From: a virus
Direction: 5' to 3' (one strand)
DNA length: 40,391 nt
IMG/VR virus record: IMGVR_UViG_3300036817_000094
Span: 1 to 40,391 of that record
Made by a program: the position numbers and the translations under genes
Part shown: positions 1 through 7,912 of the stretch, one piece after another
How the letters are laid out: every line of letters starts with the position of its first letter
Numbering within the stretch: position 1 is the first letter of the stretch
The notes under the pieces: model-generated
Seen by the model: only the letters and a program-made list of their open reading frames with translations
Databases searched by the model: none
What the model was told of the DNA's origin: nothing

Positions 1-2
1 AA

Positions 3-31
3 ATTTAACATTTTCGTGGTAAGCCTGTCAA
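3..31 (-). promoter_or_regulatory. Leftward promoter candidate at the window start
   Basis: On the minus strand a perfect -35 TTGACA (31 to 26) is followed after 17 bases by TTAAAT (8 to 3), which matches four of six -10 positions. If the genome is circular it would transcribe leftward across the junction, antisense to the last gene. Its -10 lies against the -10 of the rightward promoter beginning at 40367, so the two would compete. Confidence 0.4.
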
Positions 32-75
32 GGGGGTACCCTCCCCACCCCTCAACTTTTTTTAGGGGAATCCTA

Positions 76-104
76 TTGACTTTCTACGTGGTGTGTGGTA
101 CAAC
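76..104 (+). promoter_or_regulatory. Promoter candidate in the left leader array
   Basis: TTGACT at 76-81, a 17-base spacer, then TACAAC at 99-104. The -35 matches five of six and the -10 four of six consensus bases. It lies 45 bases upstream of the better promoter at 121, in the same orientation, and points toward the left-arm operon. Confidence 0.4.
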
Positions 105-120
105 TTTTTTGATTATATGT

Positions 121-150
121 TTGACAGTTCTGGGGCGTTGTGATTATACT
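121..150 (+). promoter_or_regulatory. Strong sigma70-type promoter for the left arm
   Basis: A perfect TTGACA at 121-126 and TATACT at 145-150 are separated by 18 bases. It reads rightward through the region antisense to the HNH gene (144-551) toward the DUF932-type gene at 665. The HNH stop codon lies inside this promoter, so the HNH gene appears to have been inserted into, or to have grown up against, the leader. Confidence 0.65.
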
Positions 151-551
151 TTGTCGCTAAGTACATCCCATGCGTTTGACATATCGCACTCACTTGTGCT
201 TATTGATTCATACGGATATACATTCTTTCTGTTGCGATAGCTTGACAAAACCCTGATGTTGCATCTCCTATTGTCAAGCGTATAGCCGTTTCGATGGTCG
301 CCTTTCAACTCCCGCCTACAACTTTCACATGGATGGCCCCTGCGTATCCTGTGATCTACCGCGCCGAGAATTAGTCTCTGCATCGACTCTGGCCCATTGC
401 GGAGCATCGTATAGGCGTATGTTTGCCCGTTTGTTGCTACCCTTGCAGACCATTTGAAGTGCGATAGCCACTCGAAGTCCGAGACATCTACGGCGGTGAA
501 ACCCCTGCTATTACTGAGTTTTATGAGCTTATACATTGGCCCGGTTAGCAT
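144..551 (-). CDS. HNH homing endonuclease
   Basis: A 135-residue HNH protein, likely a free-standing homing endonuclease that nicks or cuts phage DNA. The layout is typical of phage HNH proteins: a KLIKLSNSRGFTAVDVSD start, an FEWLSHFKWSA segment, MQRLILG near residue 57, and the HNH core DHRNGYTLDNRRCNIR at 85-100. Unusually, about 19 residues with a CESC pair and a second DHR separate MQRLILG from the core; most relatives are continuous here. The gene is antisense to the rightward promoter array and its 3' end overlaps the promoter at 121-150. Start choice is weak: Met1 (551) and Met6 both lack a good ribosome-binding site. Such genes are usually selfish insertions. Confidence 0.72.
   Translation of the reverse strand: MLTGPMYKLIKLSNSRGFTAVDVSDFEWLSHFKWSARVATNGQTYAYTMLRNGPESMQRLILGAVDHRIRRGHPCESCRRELKGDHRNGYTLDNRRCNIRVLSSYRNRKNVYPYESISTSECDMSNAWDVLSDKV
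176..204 (+). promoter_or_regulatory. Weaker promoter candidate in the left leader array
   Basis: A perfect TTGACA at 176-181 is followed after 17 bases by CTTATT, a poor -10. Listed because it continues the series of rightward TTGACA boxes (40321, 40367, 76, 121, 176, 242). It may be a decayed promoter or a binding site. Confidence 0.3.
241..278. repeat. Inverted repeat CTTGACAA / TTGTCAAG
   Basis: Perfect 8-base inverted arms at 241-248 and 271-278, 22 bases apart, each containing a TTGACA box. The arms could be two opposed -35 boxes or a dimeric operator. The plus-strand box has only a poor -10 at normal spacing. They lie inside the HNH coding region. Confidence 0.4.
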
Positions 552-630
552 ATTTATTTTCTATCTACTTTGTATCCAAGTTTGCTTAGTGTGTTATAGT
601 TGTATGTAGATTCATGCTTCATCAAACCAT

Positions 631-656
631 GGGCCGCAGGTCCGACACTCGAAAGG
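631..656 (+). promoter_or_regulatory. Leader hairpin plus conserved SD box, copy 1
   Basis: A short hairpin, GGGCC-gca-GGTCC (631-643), is followed by ACACTCGAAAGG (645-656), which contains the ribosome-binding site; the ATG follows 8 bases later. The same arrangement precedes the next two genes (1582-1607 and 1899-1925). The stems differ in sequence but still pair, suggesting a selected RNA structure. Confidence 0.65.
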
Positions 657-664
657 CTATACCG

Positions 665-1537
665 ATGACTCGTTTTAACTCCACATTCGCCAATGCTCTC
701 ACCGTTGATGCTCTTCGCCACTATGTACCCTCCGCATTTGCTACCGCGCCTCACATCTCCCGTTCTGCTCGCTACACCTACATTCCCACATCCGAAGTAA
801 TCGCCGGTTTGACTGCTCAGGGTTTTACCCCGTTCAAGGCGGTACAGTCGCGGTCACGCATCGAGGGGAAGTCTGAGTTTACCAAACACATGATTCGCTT
901 TCGCCACGCGGATGCGGTCGCAAACGCTAACGGCAATATCCCCGAAGTTGTCCTTATCAACTCACACGATGGGACAAGCGCCTATAAGTTGCTCGCAGGC
1001 ATCTTCCGAATGATCTGCACGAACGGACTTATCACCTATGATGAAAAGTTTGGTGAGTTGAGCGTACCCCACAAAGGCAACATTGTTGATCGCGTAATTG
1101 AGGGTAGCTTCGAGATTATCGGGCAGTCACAAAAGGCGCTCGGCACCATCGACGCATGGCAGCAACTACGCCTTAGCGCTGGGGAGCAAGTAGCGTTTGC
1201 AGAGGCAGCGCATACGCTCCGTTTCGCCGATGCGGACGGGAAGACTGACACACCCATAACCGCAGAGATGTTGCTCGCGCCGCGTCGCATGGCGGACCGC
1301 GCAGACGATGGGCGCTCGTGGTCGCGTCCAGCGCCTGACCTTTACCGCACGATGAACGTAGTTCAAGAAAACGTCATACGTGGCGGATTGTCGGCGGTCC
1401 GCATCGAAGACGGGCAGCGTCGCCGCGTGACGACTCGTGAGGTGAAGGGTATCGACCAAGACGTAAAACTTAACCGCGCCTTGTGGCAGTTGGCCGAATC
1501 GATGGCCCGTTTGAAAGGCGCTCGCAACGCAGCATAG
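665..1537 (+). CDS. DUF932 / phage-plasmid-like protein (TIGR03299-type)
   Basis: A 290-residue protein that reads like the DUF932 family, common on phages and plasmids and of unproven function, often near replication or recombination genes. Family-like stretches are the N-terminal YIPTSEVIAGLTAQGFTPFK, the central KHMIRFRH and LINSHDGTSAYKLLAGIFRM (about residues 75-120), CTNGLI near 122, and a basic C-terminus. The ATG at 665 is chosen over the in-frame 614 because GAAAGG lies 8 bases upstream and the repeated leader hairpin ends just before it. It is the first gene of the left-arm operon and is followed by a stem-loop at 1545-1568. It is probably expressed early from the promoter array. 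Confidence 0.8.
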   Translation: MTRFNSTFANALTVDALRHYVPSAFATAPHISRSARYTYIPTSEVIAGLTAQGFTPFKAVQSRSRIEGKSEFTKHMIRFRHADAVANANGNIPEVVLINSHDGTSAYKLLAGIFRMICTNGLITYDEKFGELSVPHKGNIVDRVIEGSFEIIGQSQKALGTIDAWQQLRLSAGEQVAFAEAAHTLRFADADGKTDTPITAEMLLAPRRMADRADDGRSWSRPAPDLYRTMNVVQENVIRGGLSAVRIEDGQRRRVTTREVKGIDQDVKLNRALWQLAESMARLKGARNAA

Positions 1538-1544
1538 GTGCAAC

Positions 1545-1568
1545 GGTGGGAGTGACTACGCTCCCACC
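1545..1568 (+). terminator. Stem-loop after the DUF932-type gene
   Basis: GGTGGGAG (1545-1552) pairs perfectly with CTCCCACC (1561-1568) around an 8-base loop and is followed by AATTTCTT. The U-run is weak, so it is probably a partial terminator or an RNA-processing or stability element that lowers expression of the downstream small genes. Confidence 0.5.
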
Positions 1569-1581
1569 AATTTCTTCCCAT

Positions 1582-1607
1582 GGGGCAGCGCTCCAACACT
1601 CGAAAGG
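1582..1607 (+). promoter_or_regulatory. Leader hairpin plus conserved SD box, copy 2
   Basis: GGGGC-agc-GCTCC (1582-1594), then ACACTCGAAAGG (1596-1607), upstream of the ATG pair at 1613/1616. Compared with copy 1, paired positions of the stem have changed together (C-G to G-C, then C-G kept). The 13 bases from the SD box back are almost identical in both copies. Confidence 0.65.
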
Positions 1608-1615
1608 ACTCTATG

Positions 1616-1894
1616 ATGTCGCACAACTTTATCGACCTAATCAACTCCAAGGATGGCACCTTTCCCGCGTGGGCATGGCCCGGAGGGTATCCGCTGTTTT
1701 ACCTCATGTGTGACGGTGAGGCGCTTTGTCCATGCTGCGTCAACAAGGAAATTTGGCAGGTGCTTGAGGCCACGTTTAGCGATGCGCGTTACGGATGGAC
1801 ACTTGTGGGGGTAGCGGTCAATTGGGAAGACGTTAGCCTGTATTGCTCACAGTGCGGGTCGCGCATCACCTCCGCGTATGGCGAGCTTGACTAA
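1616..1894 (+). CDS. Small zinc-ribbon-like protein, unknown function
   Basis: A 92-residue protein not recognised beyond its cysteine pairs. Residues CPCC near 35 and CSQCGSRI near 79 could bind one zinc ion as a ribbon; the part between is ordinary globular sequence rich in Trp and Val. ATG 1616 gives the same 8-base spacing from AAAGG as the neighbouring genes; ATG 1613, one codon earlier, is equally possible. It sits between two copies of the repeated hairpin leader, so its translation is probably controlled together with genes 665 and 1935. A small early phage protein acting on a host factor would fit, but nothing in the sequence proves this. Confidence 0.6.
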   Translation: MSHNFIDLINSKDGTFPAWAWPGGYPLFYLMCDGEALCPCCVNKEIWQVLEATFSDARYGWTLVGVAVNWEDVSLYCSQCGSRITSAYGELD

Positions 1895-1898
1895 AACC

Positions 1899-1925
1899 GG
1901 GAGCATCGCTCCCACACTCGAAAGG
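1899..1925 (+). promoter_or_regulatory. Leader hairpin plus conserved SD box, copy 3
   Basis: A perfect 6-bp stem, GGGAGC-atc-GCTCCC (1899-1913), runs directly into ACACTCGAAAGG (1914-1925). It is the strongest version of the repeated leader and begins 4 bases after the stop codon of the preceding gene. Confidence 0.7.
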
Positions 1926-1934
1926 ATGACAAAA

Positions 1935-2123
1935 ATGCACCTCTGCTTTTTCCCTGTAAACAATGCTTGGGCGTTCGTCTTCGGCGATGACATCCGCACG
2001 GCTACGCCTATATCGCTCCACATGTTCCCGCTCTTCTACCGCACCAAAGGTCACGCGCTCGAAGCTGCGCGGCATCGTGGCCTCTATGTCGATCTGGCAA
2101 CCAACAAAGTATCCGTTGAATAG
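1935..2123 (+). CDS. Small protein of unknown function
   Basis: A 62-residue protein with no recognised family. It starts MHLCFFPVNNAWAFVFGDD and has a basic, His-rich middle (KGHALEAARHRG). The Met at 1935 is preferred over the one at 1926, which touches the SD box, because 1935 gives 9 bases of spacing from AAAGG and matches the two genes before it. It is the third gene with the repeated hairpin leader. Length and composition suggest a single compact domain, perhaps a host-modulating protein, but this is only a guess from position. Confidence 0.55.
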   Translation: MHLCFFPVNNAWAFVFGDDIRTATPISLHMFPLFYRTKGHALEAARHRGLYVDLATNKVSVE

Positions 2124-2129
2124 CCGCTG

Positions 2130-2148
2130 GCCCGGAGCGCATCCGGGC
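2130..2148 (+). promoter_or_regulatory. Perfect hairpin before gene 2165
   Basis: GCCCGGA-gcgca-TCCGGGC, a perfect 7-bp stem, occupies the gap between genes 1935 and 2165 and is followed by AGAAAGAATTTTT. It takes the place of the hairpin leaders of the three upstream genes but lacks the ACACTCGAAAGG box. The run of T makes it terminator-like as well. Confidence 0.55.
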
Positions 2149-2164
2149 AGAAAGAATTTTTCGA

Positions 2165-2500
2165 ATGGATCTGAAATACACCAATCCGCGCACGGTCGCA
2201 GTCATCACTGACTGGCCGAGCGGCACAAAGCGAGTCACTGCCAAGTTTGAAATTGAGAGCAACGGCAGAGGCGAGCGAGCTATTCGCACCACGTTTGGCG
2301 CACCTAAAAAGCTCACCTATGCGCTCAAGTCGCGCATCGTAGACGGCGACGATGGCCGCACCTACTTCGTCTCCATCATGCGTGGTGACATGCAATTTCA
2401 GCATGAGACCATCCACTCAAATAACCCACGCTACGCGGCAGCAATGGAGTTGTTTGCTGCGGATGTGTCGGAGGTGGCACCACCAAGAAAGGACGGATGA
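2165..2500 (+). CDS. Hypothetical phage protein
   Basis: A 111-residue protein of unknown function. The first half looks like a beta-rich fold (RTVAVITDWPSGTKRVTAKFEIE) and the second half has a short helix (YAAAMELFAADVSEV). There are no membrane segments, signal peptide or cysteine motifs. The ATG at 2165 has only the weak SD-like AGAAAGAA upstream, unlike its strong-SD neighbours. Its stop overlaps the start of the next gene (ATGATG at 2497-2502), so the two are translated as a coupled pair. Confidence 0.6.
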   Translation: MDLKYTNPRTVAVITDWPSGTKRVTAKFEIESNGRGERAIRTTFGAPKKLTYALKSRIVDGDDGRTYFVSIMRGDMQFQHETIHSNNPRYAAAMELFAADVSEVAPPRKDG

Positions 2501-2814
2501 TGGAATATCACCAGGCGATGCAGATACTACGGGCGCATCAGGTTCACGCGCCTGCAATCGTTCACTTCCCCGGCAAGGCCGGTTTTCACATCTTCTCGCG
2601 CACACGGCAGCTTAGTCACGGCGCGACTATCGAAGATGCCATGAGAGCGGGGGGGTTTTTACTTCTCCCTGCTCACCCCCTTCACCCGTTCGCTTACGAG
2701 GGTTTAATGGTCCATTGGCGTAGCAGGCTGGTGTGTACCGCTGAATCAAAGACGCTCGCGCAACGGATCGCAAATGCACTCAACGAATACATACCCGGAA
2801 AGAAGGCAAAATGA
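2497..2814 (+). CDS. Hypothetical phage protein
   Basis: A 105-residue protein with no family I recognise. It has an N-terminal helix (YHQAMQILRAH), a middle that could be strand-rich (AIVHFPGKAGFHIFSR), and a C-terminal helix (LAQRIANALNEYI) with a Lys-rich tail. It starts at a tandem ATGATG overlapping the stop of gene 2165 and ends in an ATGA overlap with gene 2811, so expression is translationally coupled at both ends. A neighbour-based guess is an accessory early protein; no catalytic motif is visible. Confidence 0.6.
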   Translation: MMEYHQAMQILRAHQVHAPAIVHFPGKAGFHIFSRTRQLSHGATIEDAMRAGGFLLLPAHPLHPFAYEGLMVHWRSRLVCTAESKTLAQRIANALNEYIPGKKAK

Positions 2815-3107
2815 CGGAAGAAACTTTAATCCCTACAGGCTTACAAACTCCTGAAGGCATCGAGCGCGTGAACAAAGCGCAGAGTGCCTATCTCGACGTG
2901 ACTGCTCGCCTTGCTGAAGCAACTGACAAATTCTTCGAGCACATCACATGGTGCGGTCCCTCCGAAGTGCGTTTCAACTTTGAAGACGCTCGCGAGGATG
3001 CCGAGGACATAATCCTCCGCATCGAAGAGCGCCGCGAGGCTCAGTACGAACTACGGGCAGCGGTCGCAGGTCGTCCACCCGCTCTCGATGGGCTGGGCGA
3101 ACTATGA
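2811..3107 (+). CDS. Acidic helical hypothetical protein
   Basis: A 98-residue protein, mostly predicted helix and rich in Glu, Asp and Arg, for example FEDAREDAEDIILRIEERREAQ near 65-87, which could form a short coiled coil. There are no membrane or metal-binding motifs. It begins in ATGA overlap with the stop of gene 2497. After its stop the operon changes to very small membrane and zinc proteins. Function unknown; a dimeric adaptor or regulator is a reasonable but untested idea. Confidence 0.6.
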   Translation: MTEETLIPTGLQTPEGIERVNKAQSAYLDVTARLAEATDKFFEHITWCGPSEVRFNFEDAREDAEDIILRIEERREAQYELRAAVAGRPPALDGLGEL

Positions 3108-3122
3108 AGGCTGTCGGGTGAA

Positions 3123-3293
3123 GTGATTTTTCTTTGGAAGTTGTACCTCTACCCCTCTGTTTTTGGCGCTGGCATGTACCTCTTTGTGGTCGCCATCGCC
3201 GCACCTATTCTCCGCTTCATCCACCGAAAAGGAAGTCCGAGTGAGAATCGTAATCATCATCGTTCTGGCGCTCGTCGCGCTAAATCTCAATAG
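3123..3293 (+). CDS. Small membrane protein (GTG start)
   Basis: A 56-residue open frame starting at GTG 3123. It has one clear membrane segment (VFGAGMYLFVVAIAAPILRF, about residues 13-32) between a short N-terminus and a very basic His/Arg-rich tail (NRNHHRSGARRAKSQ). It overlaps the start of gene 3241 by 53 bases in another frame. The start is uncertain: ATG 3174 would cut into the membrane segment, and no strong SD precedes 3123. Small phage membrane proteins in early operons often serve lysis timing or exclusion; here function is unknown. Confidence 0.45.
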   Translation: MIFLWKLYLYPSVFGAGMYLFVVAIAAPILRFIHRKGSPSENRNHHRSGARRAKSQ

Positions 3294-3519
3294 CAAAAAT
3301 CACAAGCTCAACGCGGAGATAGAAGATTTGCAAACCGAAGTCCAGACCGCACAGGACGCCGCAAGCGAAGCGCAGGACCATGCACAAGCCGCCAGCGACG
3401 CCGCTCACGAGGCTGCGGACTACGCAGCGGACGATGATTCAGACTCGGCGCAGGCTGCGGCTGAAGATGCTGCGGATGAAGCCGATAGCGCCAGCGAAGC
3501 AATTGACGACAACAACTAA
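3241..3519 (+). CDS. Membrane-anchored Ala/Asp-rich coiled-coil protein
   Basis: A 92-residue protein starting at GTG 3241, chosen because AAGGA lies at 3229-3233. Residues 2-15 (RIVIIIVLALVALN) are a hydrophobic anchor. From residue 20 onward the chain is a continuous helix of heptad-like Ala/Glu/Asp/Gln repeats ending in an acidic tail. An N-terminal anchor followed by a periplasmic coiled coil is the plan of an inner-membrane spanin, but no lipoprotein partner is nearby and the lysis genes are elsewhere, so spanin is only one option. The low-complexity Asp/Ala composition differs sharply from its neighbours. Confidence 0.6.
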   Translation: MRIVIIIVLALVALNLNSKNHKLNAEIEDLQTEVQTAQDAASEAQDHAQAASDAAHEAADYAADDDSDSAQAAAEDAADEADSASEAIDDNN

Positions 3520-3536
3520 GAAAGTAGGGCTCTGCT

Positions 3537-3665
3537 GTGCTTGTACGATTTTTCTGCTGGTTAAGCCATTTGCTTGTGGAATGGTCGGAACGTGATCGCT
3601 GTACAACCTGTGGTTTCGATAGGCCCAACGTTCAATGTTCGGCCTGCGGTCCGGGGGGAAAATGA
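3537..3665 (+). CDS. 42-residue membrane/zinc micro-protein
   Basis: An open frame from GTG 3537 encoding a hydrophobic start (VLVRFFCWLSHLLVEW) and a four-cysteine zinc-ribbon signature, CTTC followed after 8 residues by CSAC. It ends in an ATGA overlap with gene 3662. The cysteine spacing and the coupled overlap argue that it is real, although the SD is weak. Gene finders would usually miss it. Function unknown; membrane-tethered zinc knuckles can recruit other proteins. Confidence 0.45.
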   Translation: MLVRFFCWLSHLLVEWSERDRCTTCGFDRPNVQCSACGPGGK

Positions 3666-3772
3666 ACCCGGACGGTATGACTCCGGCCCTTATCATCGCG
3701 AGCGTCTTTGGAGTTTACGGCGTGGTGATGCTGATACGGGAGATGAGAAAGGTGGGGAAAAAGCCAAAATAG
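3662..3772 (+). CDS. 36-residue single-pass membrane peptide
   Basis: It starts at ATG 3662, overlapping the stop of gene 3537 by four bases. A short polar N-terminus (MNPDGMTP) leads into a single membrane helix (ALIIASVFGVYGVVMLI) and a strongly basic tail (REMRKVGKKPK), giving an N-out, C-in topology by the positive-inside rule. It is the last gene before the convergent stem-loop at 3789. A holin-like or inhibitor role is possible but unproven. Confidence 0.5.
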   Translation: MNPDGMTPALIIASVFGVYGVVMLIREMRKVGKKPK

Positions 3773-3788
3773 CGGATCGATCGAAATA

Positions 3789-3827
3789 TAGACAAGGCCT
3801 TGGGCGGTAGTGCCAAGGCCTTGTCTA
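3789..3827. terminator. 15-bp perfect stem-loop between convergent operons
   Basis: The arms at 3789-3803 and 3813-3827 are perfectly complementary over 15 bases around a 9-base loop. It separates the rightward operon (last stop 3772) from the leftward block, whose stop codon (3825-3827) is part of the stem. On the minus strand it is followed by TATATTT; neither side has a full U-run. Each arm contains the 10-base palindrome CAAGGCCTTG, so the element is both a direct and an inverted repeat. Confidence 0.7.
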
Positions 3828-4511
3828 GCTCATCGGGCAACCGCTCGGCTCCATTCGCACCACCTTGGCCCTCGGAACGAGCCTCAAGGCTATTTCCACT
3901 TGACGCTGCAACTCCCTTTCACCCTCCGGCCCGTCATAGATTCGGGCAGTGTCACGCAGGGTAGGAAGTCCACTTTCGATGGCTCCCAAAATCTCTTCCC
4001 GCGTCGCCACTCGGCCCCGGCAGTACCACTCCACCCGGAACGGTTTTCCCACCTTGAATAGAACGCCGTTCGGCACCTCAAAGGGATACCCGTTGCGCGA
4101 GTACCAAAGCACGGTCACGCCGGGATTGCGCTCGATCATAATTCCGGCAGGCTTCCCGCGTTCGGCTGGCAGGCCGTCGGTCCTGCGGACCATCTGCGGC
4201 TTACTCAGAAACGGGCAGGCCGTAGCAGCGAACAAGGCGCACTCGCGATGGTTCGGCGGCTCACCCGATACCCTGTTCACGGCGCACATCGGCCCAATGA
4301 CGAAGACGGCTTCGCGGAATAGCGCGTTGCCACACGTCCAACATCGGCGCTCATTGATCGCCTTGACAAACTTGCGTTGGTCCATGGCGCGAAACTCGGG
4401 TTTCCCGTCGATCCACTGCACAAACCACGGAACCGGATAGCCGCGCTCGTCAACCGGCAGGCCTCGCATGAAGTGTGGCAGCGGGGGAAGGTCGGCGCGT
4501 AGTTGGTTCAT
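3825..4511 (-). CDS. Conserved phage hypothetical with a cysteine pair cluster
   Basis: A 228-residue protein of the kind found in many soil-phage genomes, with no assigned function. The N-terminal half has the conserved look of HFMRGLPVDERGYPVPWFV then CWTCG (about 57-61), MCAVNR and HRECALFAATACPF, giving a set of Cys/His residues that could bind zinc or a nucleic acid. The second half is a mixed alpha/beta region. ATG 4511 has AAGGGA upstream and overlaps the stop of the preceding gene (ATGA). It is the last gene of the leftward block and ends in the convergent terminator. Confidence 0.65.
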   Translation of the reverse strand: MNQLRADLPPLPHFMRGLPVDERGYPVPWFVQWIDGKPEFRAMDQRKFVKAINERRCWTCGNALFREAVFVIGPMCAVNRVSGEPPNHRECALFAATACPFLSKPQMVRRTDGLPAERGKPAGIMIERNPGVTVLWYSRNGYPFEVPNGVLFKVGKPFRVEWYCRGRVATREEILGAIESGLPTLRDTARIYDGPEGERELQRQVEIALRLVPRAKVVRMEPSGCPMS

Positions 4512-4852
4512 TGGATGGTTCCCTTGAAAATCTCTTCGATGTCCGGTGGAAAGGCTCTTACGTTTTTAATAAGCTCTTTTTGCTTCCGGCGCAGGCGCAC
4601 AACCTCTCCGACATAGTAGGCCGATTGGCCTATCGCGCAGACGATGACCACGCCCGTAGTCCACCTCACGGCGCGGTTCTGGCCTAGCAGGACGTAACCC
4701 ATGTTCGCGAACGATAGGCCCATGGTCAATCCAACCGAGATGAAGGCGAGGACGTCTCGCCGTCTAAAACTTGGCTGGAATGGCGGTTCAAAGGAGATGT
4801 GTAGCCATGGCCCTCGCACTTCCCGCACTTCGTCTGTTTTTTCTGGTTCCAT
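4508..4852 (-). CDS. Two-helix membrane protein
   Basis: A 114-residue protein with two likely membrane helices: VLAFISVGLTMGLSFANMGYV (about residues 35-55) and TTGVVIVCAIGQSAYYVGEVV (about 67-87). A polar N-terminus with many Glu/Lys and a basic tail flank them. The in-frame 5017 start is rejected because its first 55 residues are the shadow of the zinc-finger gene. ATG 4852 has GAGG about 8 bases upstream. It overlaps gene 4726 by 127 bases in another frame, an unusually long overlap. Two-helix topology would suit a holin-type or superinfection protein, but the lysis genes are elsewhere. Confidence 0.6.
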   Translation of the reverse strand: MEPEKTDEVREVRGPWLHISFEPPFQPSFRRRDVLAFISVGLTMGLSFANMGYVLLGQNRAVRWTTGVVIVCAIGQSAYYVGEVVRLRRKQKELIKNVRAFPPDIEEIFKGTIQ

Positions 4853-5010
4853 CCTGATCCCTCGCAGTCTAGGCAGGCCGTGAGCATCCCGCTCCCGTTG
4901 CACTTCGCACACGTCTTGCTCGGCCTCCGGGTCTTCGTTCCCCGGCTGCAATTGCATTTGCCACGTCCATCCTTGCGAAGAGCGGCGGCGGCGATGTCGC
5001 TGACATCCAT
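4726..5010 (-). CDS. DnaJ-type zinc-finger (CxxCxGxG) protein
   Basis: A 94-residue protein. After an N-terminal helix (MDVSDIAAAALRKDG) it has a series of cysteine pairs resembling the DnaJ cysteine-rich domain: CNC near 19, CAKCNGSG at about 34, CLDCEGSG at about 46 and CGKCEGHG at about 61. This domain binds zinc and, in DnaJ, unfolded protein; J-less versions in phages have unknown partners. The start has AAAGGA eight bases upstream and shares bases with the TAA of the upstream gene (TAATG). The C-terminal 40 residues overlap the membrane-protein gene 4508-4852. It belongs to the zinc-protein cluster between 4.7 and 7.1 kb. Confidence 0.65.
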   Translation of the reverse strand: MDVSDIAAAALRKDGRGKCNCSRGTKTRRPSKTCAKCNGSGMLTACLDCEGSGWNQKKQTKCGKCEGHGYTSPLNRHSSQVLDGETSSPSSRLD

Positions 5011-5150
5011 TAGGCAATCCTTTTGTCCATCACTACGGCTTGTGCGGGTCTCTCATGGAACGCAACAATCGGAACCGTCTCGATCATCTCGGGCAGCGGT
5101 GCAAGCGCACCTACGAGGCTGGCGATGAAGCTACGGCGTGTTAGGGTCAT
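5010..5150 (-). CDS. 46-residue protein with a Tat-like N-terminus
   Basis: A short gene starting at ATG 5150 with GGAG eight bases upstream. The N-terminus TLTRRSFIASLVGALA looks like a twin-arginine signal (T-RR-S-F-I plus a moderately hydrophobic stretch), followed by a small polar remainder ending VVMDKRIA. Its stop overlaps the start of gene 4726 as TAATG, and its start lies inside the end of gene 5131. Good SD and coupling on both sides make it likely real. A phage Tat substrate of this size is unusual; the RR pair may simply be chance in a membrane-active peptide. Confidence 0.5.
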   Translation of the reverse strand: MTLTRRSFIASLVGALAPLPEMIETVPIVAFHERPAQAVVMDKRIA

Positions 5151-5376
5151 CGTGCTCACTCCATGCGCTCACTTTGATGTTGTGACTAGCGTACTCGGCG
5201 AGGCCTAGCGCGTGGGTGTTCACGCAATTGGTTTTCATCCACACGTCGCCGTTGACATCGGTATAAACCACCAGCATCGCCAGCGGTTCGCCATACATCC
5301 CGAAGCGTTCCAGAATCTTTATCAGGATGTCCGTACCCTTGGCGTTGTTCGGCTCTTGCCAACTGTGATCGCTCAT
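5131..5376 (-). CDS. Hypothetical protein
   Basis: An 81-residue protein of unknown function. It begins with a helical stretch (GTDILIKILERFGMYG) followed by probable strands (LAMLVVYTDVNGDVWMKT). No membrane or metal motifs. It starts at ATG 5376 in ATGA overlap with the preceding gene, with GGAGAG upstream, so it is translated as part of the coupled chain in the leftward block. No family recognised. Confidence 0.55.
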   Translation of the reverse strand: MSDHSWQEPNNAKGTDILIKILERFGMYGEPLAMLVVYTDVNGDVWMKTNCVNTHALGLAEYASHNIKVSAWSEHDDPNTP

Positions 5377-5804
5377 TTAACACTCTCTCCGCTGTCAGGG
5401 TCTACAGTCATTTGCTCAACGGGTTCATCATCTAACTCTTGTCTGAAATAACGGAAGTCCATCATGATCGCGGCGGCGGCTCCCGGTGGAAATTCGGAAC
5501 GGTCGAAGAATTTCAACACCATCGCATCGGCCTCCGTTCGCGCTGCGATTTTGATGATGTCGTTCGCTATCTTGTGGGCCTCGGCGATGCTGAGTTGCGC
5601 CTTCTCGCCGTTGACAACTATACGCACGTAGGGCTGTTTGTCTCGGGCTGAAACGATGCCATCGACGAAGACGTGGGTATCTCCTGCGTTCGGGAGATTA
5701 CCGGGTGGGCTGGCGGTGAATTGATGACACACGGCGCAATAGCCGTGACGCTCGTCTTCCGGGTGGTGGCTAGTGGTTCGGCACTTCGGGCAAGTAAAGC
5801 TCAT
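5373..5804 (-). CDS. Protein with an N-terminal zinc ribbon
   Basis: A 143-residue protein. The first 30 residues form a zinc ribbon: CPKC at 5-8 and CAVCH at 23-27. A short Pro-rich linker follows, then a mixed domain with IVSARDKQPYVRIVVNGEKAQLSI and an acidic tail. The ribbon is typical of nucleic-acid or protein-binding modules; the downstream domain is not recognised. It starts in ATGA overlap with the small open frame 5801-5974 and ends in ATGA overlap with gene 5131, giving strict operon coupling. Confidence 0.6.
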   Translation of the reverse strand: MSFTCPKCRTTSHHPEDERHGYCAVCHQFTASPPGNLPNAGDTHVFVDGIVSARDKQPYVRIVVNGEKAQLSIAEAHKIANDIIKIAARTEADAMVLKFFDRSEFPPGAAAAIMMDFRYFRQELDDEPVEQMTVDPDSGESVK

Positions 5805-5974
5805 AGGCCTCCTACTCTATGCCGAGCTAGCTGGTGGAAGTTCATCCAGCGCCAGCGATTCCACGATGGGATGTGTTTGGGTGGACGCTCACCACAAGTT
5901 ACACACTGGCAAGGTACCCCTAAATGATTACCGTACCGTCGCGGCGTATATAAGCCCTGCGAGCCGGGCGGCAA
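5801..5974 (-). CDS. Small cysteine-rich open frame bridging two genes
   Basis: An open frame with a possible TTG start at 5974 and stop at 5801 encodes a 57-residue basic, Trp-rich protein with CQCVTC in the middle. It fills the gap between the C2H2 gene (stop 5928) and gene 5373, and its TGA overlaps the next ATG as the other genes of this chain do. That coupling is the main support; no ATG or good SD is present, and the true start is unknown. The longer ATG-initiated frame to 6277 is mostly a shadow of the C2H2 gene. Confidence 0.33.
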   Translation of the reverse strand: MPPGSQGLYTPRRYGNHLGVPCQCVTCGERPPKHIPSWNRWRWMNFHQLARHRVGGL

Positions 5975-6560
5975 ACATCCTCGGAGGAAGGTCGTGTTCG
6001 AACGCAATGCTGCGGCATAGTTCTTGGAACCGGCCAAGGGCAAGGGCGAGGGTGCCTTCGGGGATACCATCTGTAACAGGGTGGCCTTCTTGGGCGTGGC
6101 TGGCGAGGCCGTTGGCTTGACTGCTGACGATGATGGCGTGGGCTGGCTGGTCAATCTCTCTCCTTGTGTACTTGCGTTTTCCGTTGGTGGGTGCGGGTTC
6201 GGCTGGTGGGGCATCGAGGCGATGTGCTTTCGAAACGTGGAGGGTGAGTCCGCCTTTCCACTTCGCGGTGAAGTCACAGTGCGGACATTTCAGATTCGCA
6301 TGTGGTTGATGCTCGGCGATGCGATGCCACACGAGCGCCTGTTTGGTCTTGGCCCTGAAAGTGCATTGATCGCATTGCAGCGAATCCCCACCTTTGGGTT
6401 TCGGCGCTGCTTTCAGTTTTCTAGCGTAAATGACATTGGGCGTCATAGAGACATAGCCGTGGACTACACGTCGATGGCTGCTCAGGCATTTGCGCGTTGG
6501 GTAAGTTACATCACAGTCCGGGCATTTCACTGATTCAGTTTTTGCTTTCGGTCGAGTCAA
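5928..6560 (-). CDS. Triple C2H2 zinc-finger protein
   Basis: A 210-residue protein with three canonical C2H2 fingers, each C-x2-C-x12-H-x4-H: C13/C16/H29/H34, C63/C66/H79/H84 and C92/C95/H108/H113. The hydrophobic positions between Cys and His are kept. A basic segment (GKRKYTRREID, about 127-137) follows, then a helical C-terminal domain (LALALGRFQELCRSIAFEHD) with no known match. The start is TTG at 6560, supported by a perfect AAGGAG five bases upstream. Tandem fingers of this type are characteristic of eukaryotic DNA-binding proteins and rare in phages; bacterial Ros/MucR has only one. Likely a sequence-specific DNA or RNA binder acting on host or phage transcription. Confidence 0.75.
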   Translation of the reverse strand: MTRPKAKTESVKCPDCDVTYPTRKCLSSHRRVVHGYVSMTPNVIYARKLKAAPKPKGGDSLQCDQCTFRAKTKQALVWHRIAEHQPHANLKCPHCDFTAKWKGGLTLHVSKAHRLDAPPAEPAPTNGKRKYTRREIDQPAHAIIVSSQANGLASHAQEGHPVTDGIPEGTLALALGRFQELCRSIAFEHDLPPRMFAARLAGLIYAATVR

Positions 6561-6864
6561 TCGTTCTCCTTCTCATTTGTTCTCCTAGTTCCATGCCGAG
6601 CCGGAAGGCCTCGGTAGGTGTGGGGTGGGTCCGTCCGAAAACCGGGTGCTCGGTCTCGAACAATTCCATGATTTTGTCAGCGGTCGTGCAATCCAGATAA
6701 CCGGTGTAATAGCCGATGTTGACGAGGGTGATGCGTCGCGCCTCGGCTGGATCGTAGTCGAGCATCTTCACCATCTCGTCTACCTGTGCCTCCACCAAGG
6801 CGCTCGCTCGTTCTTTGGTGCCATCTGCGAGCGCCAGCTTGATAATCTCGGGCATCGTCATCAT
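6535..6864 (-). CDS. Hypothetical helical protein
   Basis: A 109-residue, largely helical, acidic protein (PEIIKLALADGTKERASALVEAQVDEMVKML). No known motifs and no cysteine clusters. ATG 6864 overlaps the stop of gene 6861 by ATGA; a second Met three codons later is possible. It overlaps the start of the C2H2 gene by 26 bases. Placed directly before the finger protein in the operon, it may be a partner, but that is inference from position only. Confidence 0.6.
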   Translation of the reverse strand: MMTMPEIIKLALADGTKERASALVEAQVDEMVKMLDYDPAEARRITLVNIGYYTGYLDCTTADKIMELFETEHPVFGRTHPTPTEAFRLGMELGEQMRRRTIDSTESKN

Positions 6865-7076
6865 GGTTTCTTCTTTCTGAATCGCTCGGCCTGTGGGCAG
6901 CTAGCGTAGTGGCTGACGGCTCTCGAATCCGGGTTCGGCATCGGGTCCATGGGCAGCGTCTTCCCTGCTTTTGACTTCCAAAACTCCATGGGTGCAGAGC
7001 ATCCTTGGCAGCGCGTGTAGGCCTTGCGTGTGAATCCGGCTTCCTCCAATGCTTCGCGTGTTCGTGGGAACGGCAT
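6861..7076 (-). CDS. Small zinc-binding phage protein
   Basis: A 71-residue protein of a type seen in many phages and actinobacterial elements: a helical start, RCQGCSAPMEFWKSKAGKTLP near residues 22-42, a short Pro-rich turn (MDPMPNPDS) and HYASC near 56-60. The two cysteine pairs and histidine probably bind zinc. The start has AAGGAG five bases upstream. It lies just after gene 7086 and in ATGA overlap with gene 6535. Function unknown; small ribbons like this may bind nucleic acid. Confidence 0.65.
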   Translation of the reverse strand: MPFPRTREALEEAGFTRKAYTRCQGCSAPMEFWKSKAGKTLPMDPMPNPDSRAVSHYASCPQAERFRKKKP

Positions 7077-7085
7077 GGCGTCTCC

Positions 7086-7649
7086 TTAGTTGACTGGCAG
7101 CGCATCCCACCAGTCGTCAAGCATCATCACCTTGGTCTCGTATTCCAGCGGTTCATCGAAAACGATGGTATCGCCCACGCTCTCGCGGTACATGGCAGAG
7201 ATGACATGCTCTCTCACAAACGGTCCTTTGATCCCCACTATCAGAGCATCCCCTAATAAGCCTTTCGGAAGGTTCTGCATCTGACCGCCGAATTGCTCAT
7301 GGAGAATCTTGGTATAAATTTTTTCGCACTCCTGATAGTTCGACATCATGTCGAGTGGGATGTTGAAATAGCTCGCGAACTTCTTAAGGTCCACCTGTCG
7401 CGTGTCGCTGACGATGACGACCGCAAAGGCTCTGGCCTCACGCGCTGCGACCGTCAGCACCTTCATCATGGCGTCTTTCTCTTCGCGGCTTTTGTAGGGC
7501 GTCGGCACTAACCCTTGTTCGCCGTGTGGACCTATGACAATCGCGAGCGGCATAAAACTGCCTTTGAATCCCGCTTTCTCTCGATGCTCTTTTGCCTTCT
7601 CCATGGCATGTTGCATCACCTCTTTGATGAATTGCTCCGTTACCTGCAT
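7086..7649 (-). CDS. Hypothetical protein paired with the XRE regulator
   Basis: A 187-residue protein starting at ATG 7649. The longer frame to 7766 only shadows the regulator gene. It has a helical start (QFIKEVMQHAMEKAKEHR), then an alpha/beta core (FMPLAIVIGPHGEQGLVPTPY, FAVVIVSDTRQVDLKKFASY, GDALIVGIKGP). No catalytic motif can be named. Its start overlaps the end of the XRE gene by ten bases. Neighbouring an ATPase and regulators, a role in DNA metabolism or stress response is possible, but the fold is not recognised. Confidence 0.55.
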   Translation of the reverse strand: MQVTEQFIKEVMQHAMEKAKEHREKAGFKGSFMPLAIVIGPHGEQGLVPTPYKSREEKDAMMKVLTVAAREARAFAVVIVSDTRQVDLKKFASYFNIPLDMMSNYQECEKIYTKILHEQFGGQMQNLPKGLLGDALIVGIKGPFVREHVISAMYRESVGDTIVFDEPLEYETKVMMLDDWWDALPVN

Positions 7650-7912
7650 TTTGTTAGTCCCGCCCCTTTCTGCGGCATCCCCGCGAATAACCACGATGCC
7701 GGAGCATCGAATTGTCCCATGTAAGCAAGGATGGTTTGCACGGTGATGTTCTGGCCTGCTTCCCAATTTGAAATTGCCGATTGACTCACTCCGAGACGGG
7801 CAGCAAGGTCTATTTGTATGACTTTCGCCTGATTCCGCGCATAGCGTAGACGCTCGCCCAAGGTGACTAGTTCTGCCGTGTAGTTGTCCATTACGGGTGT
7901 CACTTTGGGCAT
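7640..7912 (-). CDS. XRE-family helix-turn-helix regulator
   Basis: A 90-residue DNA-binding protein of the Cro/CI (XRE) class. The helix-turn-helix occupies about residues 19-70: GERLRYARNQAKVIQIDLAA, then LGVSQSAISNWEAGQNITV, the recognition helix being SQSAISNWEAG. There is no C-terminal peptidase domain, so it resembles Cro or a small repressor rather than a LexA-like CI. ATG 7912 follows the ATPase stop (7913) directly. With no integrase seen, it is more likely a transcription-timing regulator than a lysogeny repressor, though a degenerate temperate origin cannot be excluded. Confidence 0.85.
   Translation of the reverse strand: MPKVTPVMDNYTAELVTLGERLRYARNQAKVIQIDLAARLGVSQSAISNWEAGQNITVQTILAYMGQFDAPASWLFAGMPQKGAGLTKCR

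Follow-up and report, generated by a model that had tools for sequence, protein, structure and literature searches.

In this phage and eight relatives, almost all early genes with a start of their own are headed by a short RNA hairpin whose sequence changes from phage to phage while its pairing is kept, and the best explanation of the sequences compared here is that selection maintains a stable hairpin at this position rather than any particular sequence. Taken jointly with that statement, we give a probability of about one half to the hairpin being a generic structural leader, one that would protect or set up separately translated early mRNAs and would not act as a switch for chosen genes. 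They offer a clear-cut natural example in which RNA leaders are repeated and their pairing is conserved but their sequence is not, unlike known start-associated repeats.

The window analyzed is a whole IMG/VR record of 40,391 bases; its minus strand carries genes for a terminase, an SU10-like portal and further structural proteins, and its left end holds a short plus-strand early operon. Gene 1 (665..1537) encodes a DUF932 protein (PF06067; Pfam 5.6e-42), with a start at 665 that is consistent with the starts of its homologues; gene 2 (1613..1894) encodes a 93-aa protein (PHROG 18452, 1.1e-19), gene 3 (1935..2123) a 62-aa protein with leader-bearing homologues in L167, L168, and L171, and gene 4 (2165..2500) a 111-aa protein, all four on the plus strand. 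The best bacterial match of the DUF932 protein lies in an Acidobacteriales metagenome-assembled genome (56%), yet among 15 window proteins tested it is the only one to match that 14.8-kb locus, and the match was not taken to identify the host.

Genes 1 to 3 are each headed by a hairpin, the 12-mer ACACTCGAAAGG (hereafter the box), and a start codon, as the original prediction held. The three stems and their three-base loops could be confirmed by reading the plus strand directly: GGGCC-GCA-GGTCC at 631..643, where the same position is paired in relatives; GGGGC-AGC-GCTCC at 1582..1594; and GGGAGC-ATC-GCTCCC at 1899..1913, starting 4 bases past the gene 2 stop. Stems 1 and 2 contain one G.U pair each. 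Exact copies of the box follow on the same strand at 645-656, 1596-1607, and 1914-1925, and the remainder of the 40,391-base record holds no further copy. A distance of 8 to 9 bases from box to ATG had been proposed; it applies to genes 1 and 3 (8 and 9) but not to gene 2, where the distance is 5, or 8 if the second of two ATGs is used. GAAAGG, which makes up the 3' half of the box on the side facing the ATG, reads as an ordinary Shine-Dalgarno sequence.

The window alone is suggestive only, because two of its three hairpins fold like shuffled sequence (RNAfold z scores of 0.34 and -0.85 for hairpins 1 and 2, which are no more stable than shuffles, and -2.74 for hairpin 3) and because 7 of 100 Markov windows contain some 12-mer in three or more copies on a single strand. 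Support for an RNA element therefore comes from relatives. A search of Rfam with window positions 1-4000 (E up to 5) gave no match to the leader hairpins, and a scan of the collection for box plus ATG returned at least 119 stretches, with one copy in each of the 80 matches listed, matches that are mostly at chance level and uninformative.

Searching with the DUF932 protein recovered eight phages with the same layout as the window and DUF932 proteins 71-77% identical to it; six of these contigs were handled as both shorter and longer cuts (L004 = L167, L005 = L168, L006 = L169, L007 = L171, L008 = L172, and L009 = L173). Each of the eight carries four to nine leaders, confined to the same early operon and in a single orientation, which bears out the expectation of an RNA element shared by several early-gene starts. 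All eight keep the DUF932 gene and all eight keep a hairpin before it, though with only three pairs in L167; the refuting condition set in the original prediction, retention of the genes with loss of stem pairing, was thus not borne out. The hairpin sequence is phage specific and is repeated ahead of several early genes within each relative: GGCCCATAGCGGCCC in L168, GGGTGCAAACCC in L169 and L183, GGAGCGACGCTCC in L170, GGGCGAAAGCCC in L171, GGGCTCCGGCCC in L172, GGGC(CTCG or TTTG)GCCC in L173, and, weakly, GGGCTAGTCCC in L167. Whole-genome pattern searches found 28 copies in five genomes and a further 7 in L170, only in the terminal operon and with none in the opposite orientation. Within most relatives the copies are near-identical, differing between phages; the three copies in the window genome differ from one another in both stem and loop. 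A further type of leader, in which stems of variable sequence enclose a CACCAA/ACCAA-like loop right before the Shine-Dalgarno sequence, occurs in L174 (8867) and L176 (6916 and 8601), and also ahead of DUF932 in L175 and L023-L026.

The comparison supports the claim that sequence changes while pairing is kept. In the eight distinct hairpins, pairing is intact at 31 of 32 stem positions, and permuting right arms among the eight gives a mean of 25 (p = 0.0012). Stem pair 3 appears as G.U, G-C, C-G, or A-U and stem pair 4 as C-G, G-C, A-U, or U-A. A MAFFT-based pair count was discarded, since stem and loop length vary and the alignment fell in the wrong register. Loops of the GNRA or UNCG type were found in L169, L183, L171, L172, and L010. 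Five phages or phage pairs have loops of four bases, and in four of these the loop is GNRA or UNCG (chance about 2e-5, in a test picked after inspection of the data). A hairpin precedes the Shine-Dalgarno sequence at 49 of 65 early starts versus 14 of 47 late starts (Fisher p = 2e-6; about a third in shuffles). These pairing and enrichment p-values are optimistic because leaders from the same phage are not independent observations.

The distribution of leaders follows gene arrangement. With early proteins grouped by similarity, the leader is present at 51 of 54 first or spaced starts, unrelated genes included, and at 1 of 14 overlapping or abutting genes. The contrast is partly geometric, because a leader needs room; what is informative is the presence of a leader at almost every spaced start regardless of gene. 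An AAA ATPase gene is preceded by the leader in five phages but not in the two where the gene abuts its upstream neighbor. Many leader-bearing genes have no orthologue in other phages. Gene 4 is preceded in the window by a different element (2120-2154, discussed below) versus the hairpin leader on its orthologues in L167 and L171. The presence of leaders at spaced starts regardless of gene, together with this swap of type at gene 4, points to a general start cassette and speaks against control of a selected gene set.

In the distant relative L010, nine early promoters of the TTGACA-17-TACAAT type (2126-7340) are each followed by a hairpin at about +1, a common tail, and a ribosome site; at least four different, unrelated stems occupy this same position directly after the promoter. 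Across the distant relatives L010, L020, L022, L023, and L175, the stem is predicted to start 7-10 bases past the -10 box, at about +1 to +4. Predicted promoters in the window family, which are weak, place the hairpin inside the transcript at about +13 to +24. Leaders within operons come after stop codons; for window copies 2 and 3, neither a clear promoter nor a known ribozyme is seen.

Ribozymes were predicted beside leaders in several relatives. Matches to Rfam RF02684 above the gathering score place a twister-P5 at 2224-2285 in L004, 2087-2151 in L005, 2153-2213 in L006, 1830-1893 in L007, and 2324-2387 and 3082-3144 in L009; another follows DUF932 in L183, and in these six relatives the predicted ribozyme lies between DUF932 and the next leader. 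More distant relatives have one at 6824-6886 (L018) and 6830-6882 (L024), while in L011 a predicted type II hammerhead (6881-6948) takes the twister-P5 place. Nearly all of the predicted ribozymes stand directly 3' of the DUF932 stop codon, upstream of the next leader. Among records searched whole, twister-P5 was found in 8 of 48, versus none of 14 control genomes; the window gave no twister-P5 match, and its positions 1-4000 matched no Rfam ribozyme. Plain hairpins occupy the ribozyme place in the window, L170, and L172. The one in the window (1545-1568, plus strand, between genes 1 and 2) is very stable, at -19.6 kcal/mol with z = -4.55.

We envision a single modular start cassette ahead of each separately translated early gene, in which a short C/A-rich linker connects the hairpin to the Shine-Dalgarno sequence. 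The hairpin would shield from decay the mRNA segment that starts there, whether by transcription initiation or by internal cleavage, and segments shielded in this way would allow the early genes to be translated independently of one another. In the six relatives with a predicted self-cleaving twister just upstream, the ribozyme would create the new 5' end. The element, its pairing, position, and generality, and the ribozyme matches are seen in the sequences themselves; the cleavage, the stabilization, and any effect on translation are what we infer. A role in exposing the ribosome-binding site was not supported by folding: scrambling the hairpin in silico left Shine-Dalgarno access unchanged (0.51 versus 0.50, p = 0.14), and this lack of folding support moves weight to protection from decay. 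Several observations count against a structural leader that protects 5' ends, namely the L167 hairpin with its three pairs; the strong similarity of the copies that one phage carries, which goes beyond what pure structure needs; the predicted deep position of the hairpin in the window family, about 13-24 bases inside transcripts from weak promoters; and window copies 2 and 3, with neither promoter nor known ribozyme in evidence.

That same similarity would be compatible with a binding factor private to each phage. The original prediction envisioned several genes regulated together through one protein or small RNA that recognizes the element, and the corresponding alternative is that the phage encodes such a reader, either a small RNA or an RNA-binding protein, which co-regulates all early genes through the leader, with a private version in each phage. 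A co-evolving binder would be expected to yield copies that are alike within a phage and different between phages, and the confinement of the leader set to the early operon fits as well. The regulon does not, however, sit well with window stems and loops that differ while the constant part is largely Shine-Dalgarno, with one position served by at least four stems in L010, with loops that are generic tetraloops, or with leader presence that tracks gene spacing and not gene identity. Nor has a candidate binder been found. The DUF932 protein (665-1537) was considered for this role and set aside, as its fairly confident AlphaFold model (pLDDT 83) has no informative structural match: no solved structure in the PDB matched at E <= 0.001, and the top fold matches are other phage DUF932/DUF945 proteins. 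Overall, we regard such a binder as a doubtful, minority possibility. Less probable is a related version in which the hairpin would be a phage-private tag on early mRNAs, read by a phage factor, with ribozymes in some phages giving each gene its own tagged 5' end; if true, private hairpin tags would mark phage mRNAs so that they could be used selectively.

Other explanations place the hairpins at the DNA level or at the ends of upstream messages. It is unlikely that the leaders are repeated boundary cassettes spread by recombination, which would enable gain and shuffling of early genes and would account for identity within a phage by copying. The many leader-bearing genes that lack orthologues and the homogeneity of copies speak for this idea, and T4-like PeSLs are reported to mediate gene shuffling (PMC4503421); a DNA recombination site, however, would have no need of compensating stem changes, and the elements are only about 25-40 bases long and hold a fixed distance from the start. 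Most of the hairpins come after stop codons and the extra hairpin at 1545-1568 is strong, as would suit intrinsic terminators or mRNA ends of the upstream genes, but no U run follows the stems, which lead instead into ACACTCG or CAACC, a Shine-Dalgarno sequence, and a start codon, and the first gene of the operon also has a hairpin. We consider this very unlikely. DNA operators, that is, palindromes bound by a repressor, have been proposed for the extended start-associated sequences (ESAS) of cluster K phages, and would agree with repeats near starts that have inverted symmetry and with the DicA-like HTH protein encoded at 7640-7912 in the window; given stem sequences that vary within a genome and include G.U pairs, and arms of 4-6 bp that share no fixed half-site, operators are highly improbable here.

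The closest described counterpart is found in the cluster K mycobacteriophages. In these phages, 13-bp start-associated sequences (SAS), GGGATAGGAGCCC, repeat at the start codons of many non-structural genes, and about half have inverted repeats (ESAS) just upstream, with a consensus that differs by subcluster; departures from the inverted repeat were judged generally not supportive of RNA pairing, and DNA-binding sites were favored (PMC3203893). Both systems share short repeats at translation starts with upstream inverted repeats. In the window family, however, arm changes preserve pairing, whereas those in ESAS do not; the arms are 4-6 bp versus 17 bp; the repeat is ACACTCGAAAGG or a phage-specific variant and not GGGATAGGAGCCC; and the phages are different.

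A second comparison concerns RiboJ, a synthetic element whose post-cleavage hairpin is thought to stabilize mRNA or help expose the ribosome site (PMC6206723). The order of predicted twister-P5, hairpin, Shine-Dalgarno sequence, and gene in six relatives resembles it and may represent a natural counterpart, or look-alike, of an engineered insulator, although RiboJ is man-made, derives from a satellite-RNA ribozyme, and is placed after a promoter, and the window has no recognizable ribozyme. This order makes the role of small ribozymes in phage operons directly testable. According to the available text of PMC3088659, prophage hammerheads flank single genes or short blocks and were suggested to cut long transcripts into gene-length mRNAs; most relatives here have another ribozyme class, and that text mentions no paired hairpin leader for the hammerheads. 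Stabilization by 5' hairpins is established in Escherichia coli and Bacillus subtilis, from ompA, appended 5' hairpins, and B. subtilis leaders (PMC3997798); those cases were tested, whereas here the effect would have to follow from sequence and the hairpin recurs ahead of almost all early genes. In T4-like phages, PeSL cassettes repeat a promoter and a stem-loop between genes (cited in PMC4503421) and are similar to L010 in having promoter plus stem-loop. One original title cited there speaks of promoter-terminator motifs, however, whereas here the hairpin belongs to the leader of the next gene and is followed by Shine-Dalgarno.

The fourth hairpin of the original prediction (2130-2148) is present, but it is a different kind of element from the leaders. 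It lies within a second element at 2120..2154 (plus strand) that appears to be a covarying candidate pseudoknot before the ribosome-binding site: a stem pairs 2130-2135 with 2143-2148, CGCT at 2125-2128 may pair with AGCG at 2136-2139, and AGAAAG follows. The general layout is CCGCn, stem, a loop opening with AGCG or CGCG, ATCC, closing arm, and Shine-Dalgarno. In the family alignment, 94% of cells pair versus 31-45% when slid, the 4-base pseudoknot helix covaries in one pair, and 64 of 66 pairs form over 11 distinct stems, exceeding all of 20,000 permutations. A covariance model from which L018 was left out matches the window at 42 bits and finds one or two elements per genome in seven of nine family phages, with two in L018. 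Searching Rfam with window positions 1-4000 (E up to 5) gave no match to 2120-2154; a match to the element in a Stenotrophomonas phage (E = 3, beside a tRNA) was judged to be chance.

When four closing-arm letters were left free, the pattern occurred in 26 IMG/VR stretches, and pairing is complete at 18 of its 28 sites. Ten of 11 sites examined start 1-18 bases past the upstream stop codon, and the genes downstream are varied, including a co-chaperonin-like (GroES-like) gene and an HTH protein. The second element is a candidate structured RNA, seen again in intergenic positions on unrelated viral contigs (L306, L308, L310, L312, L319, L322, L324, and L328).
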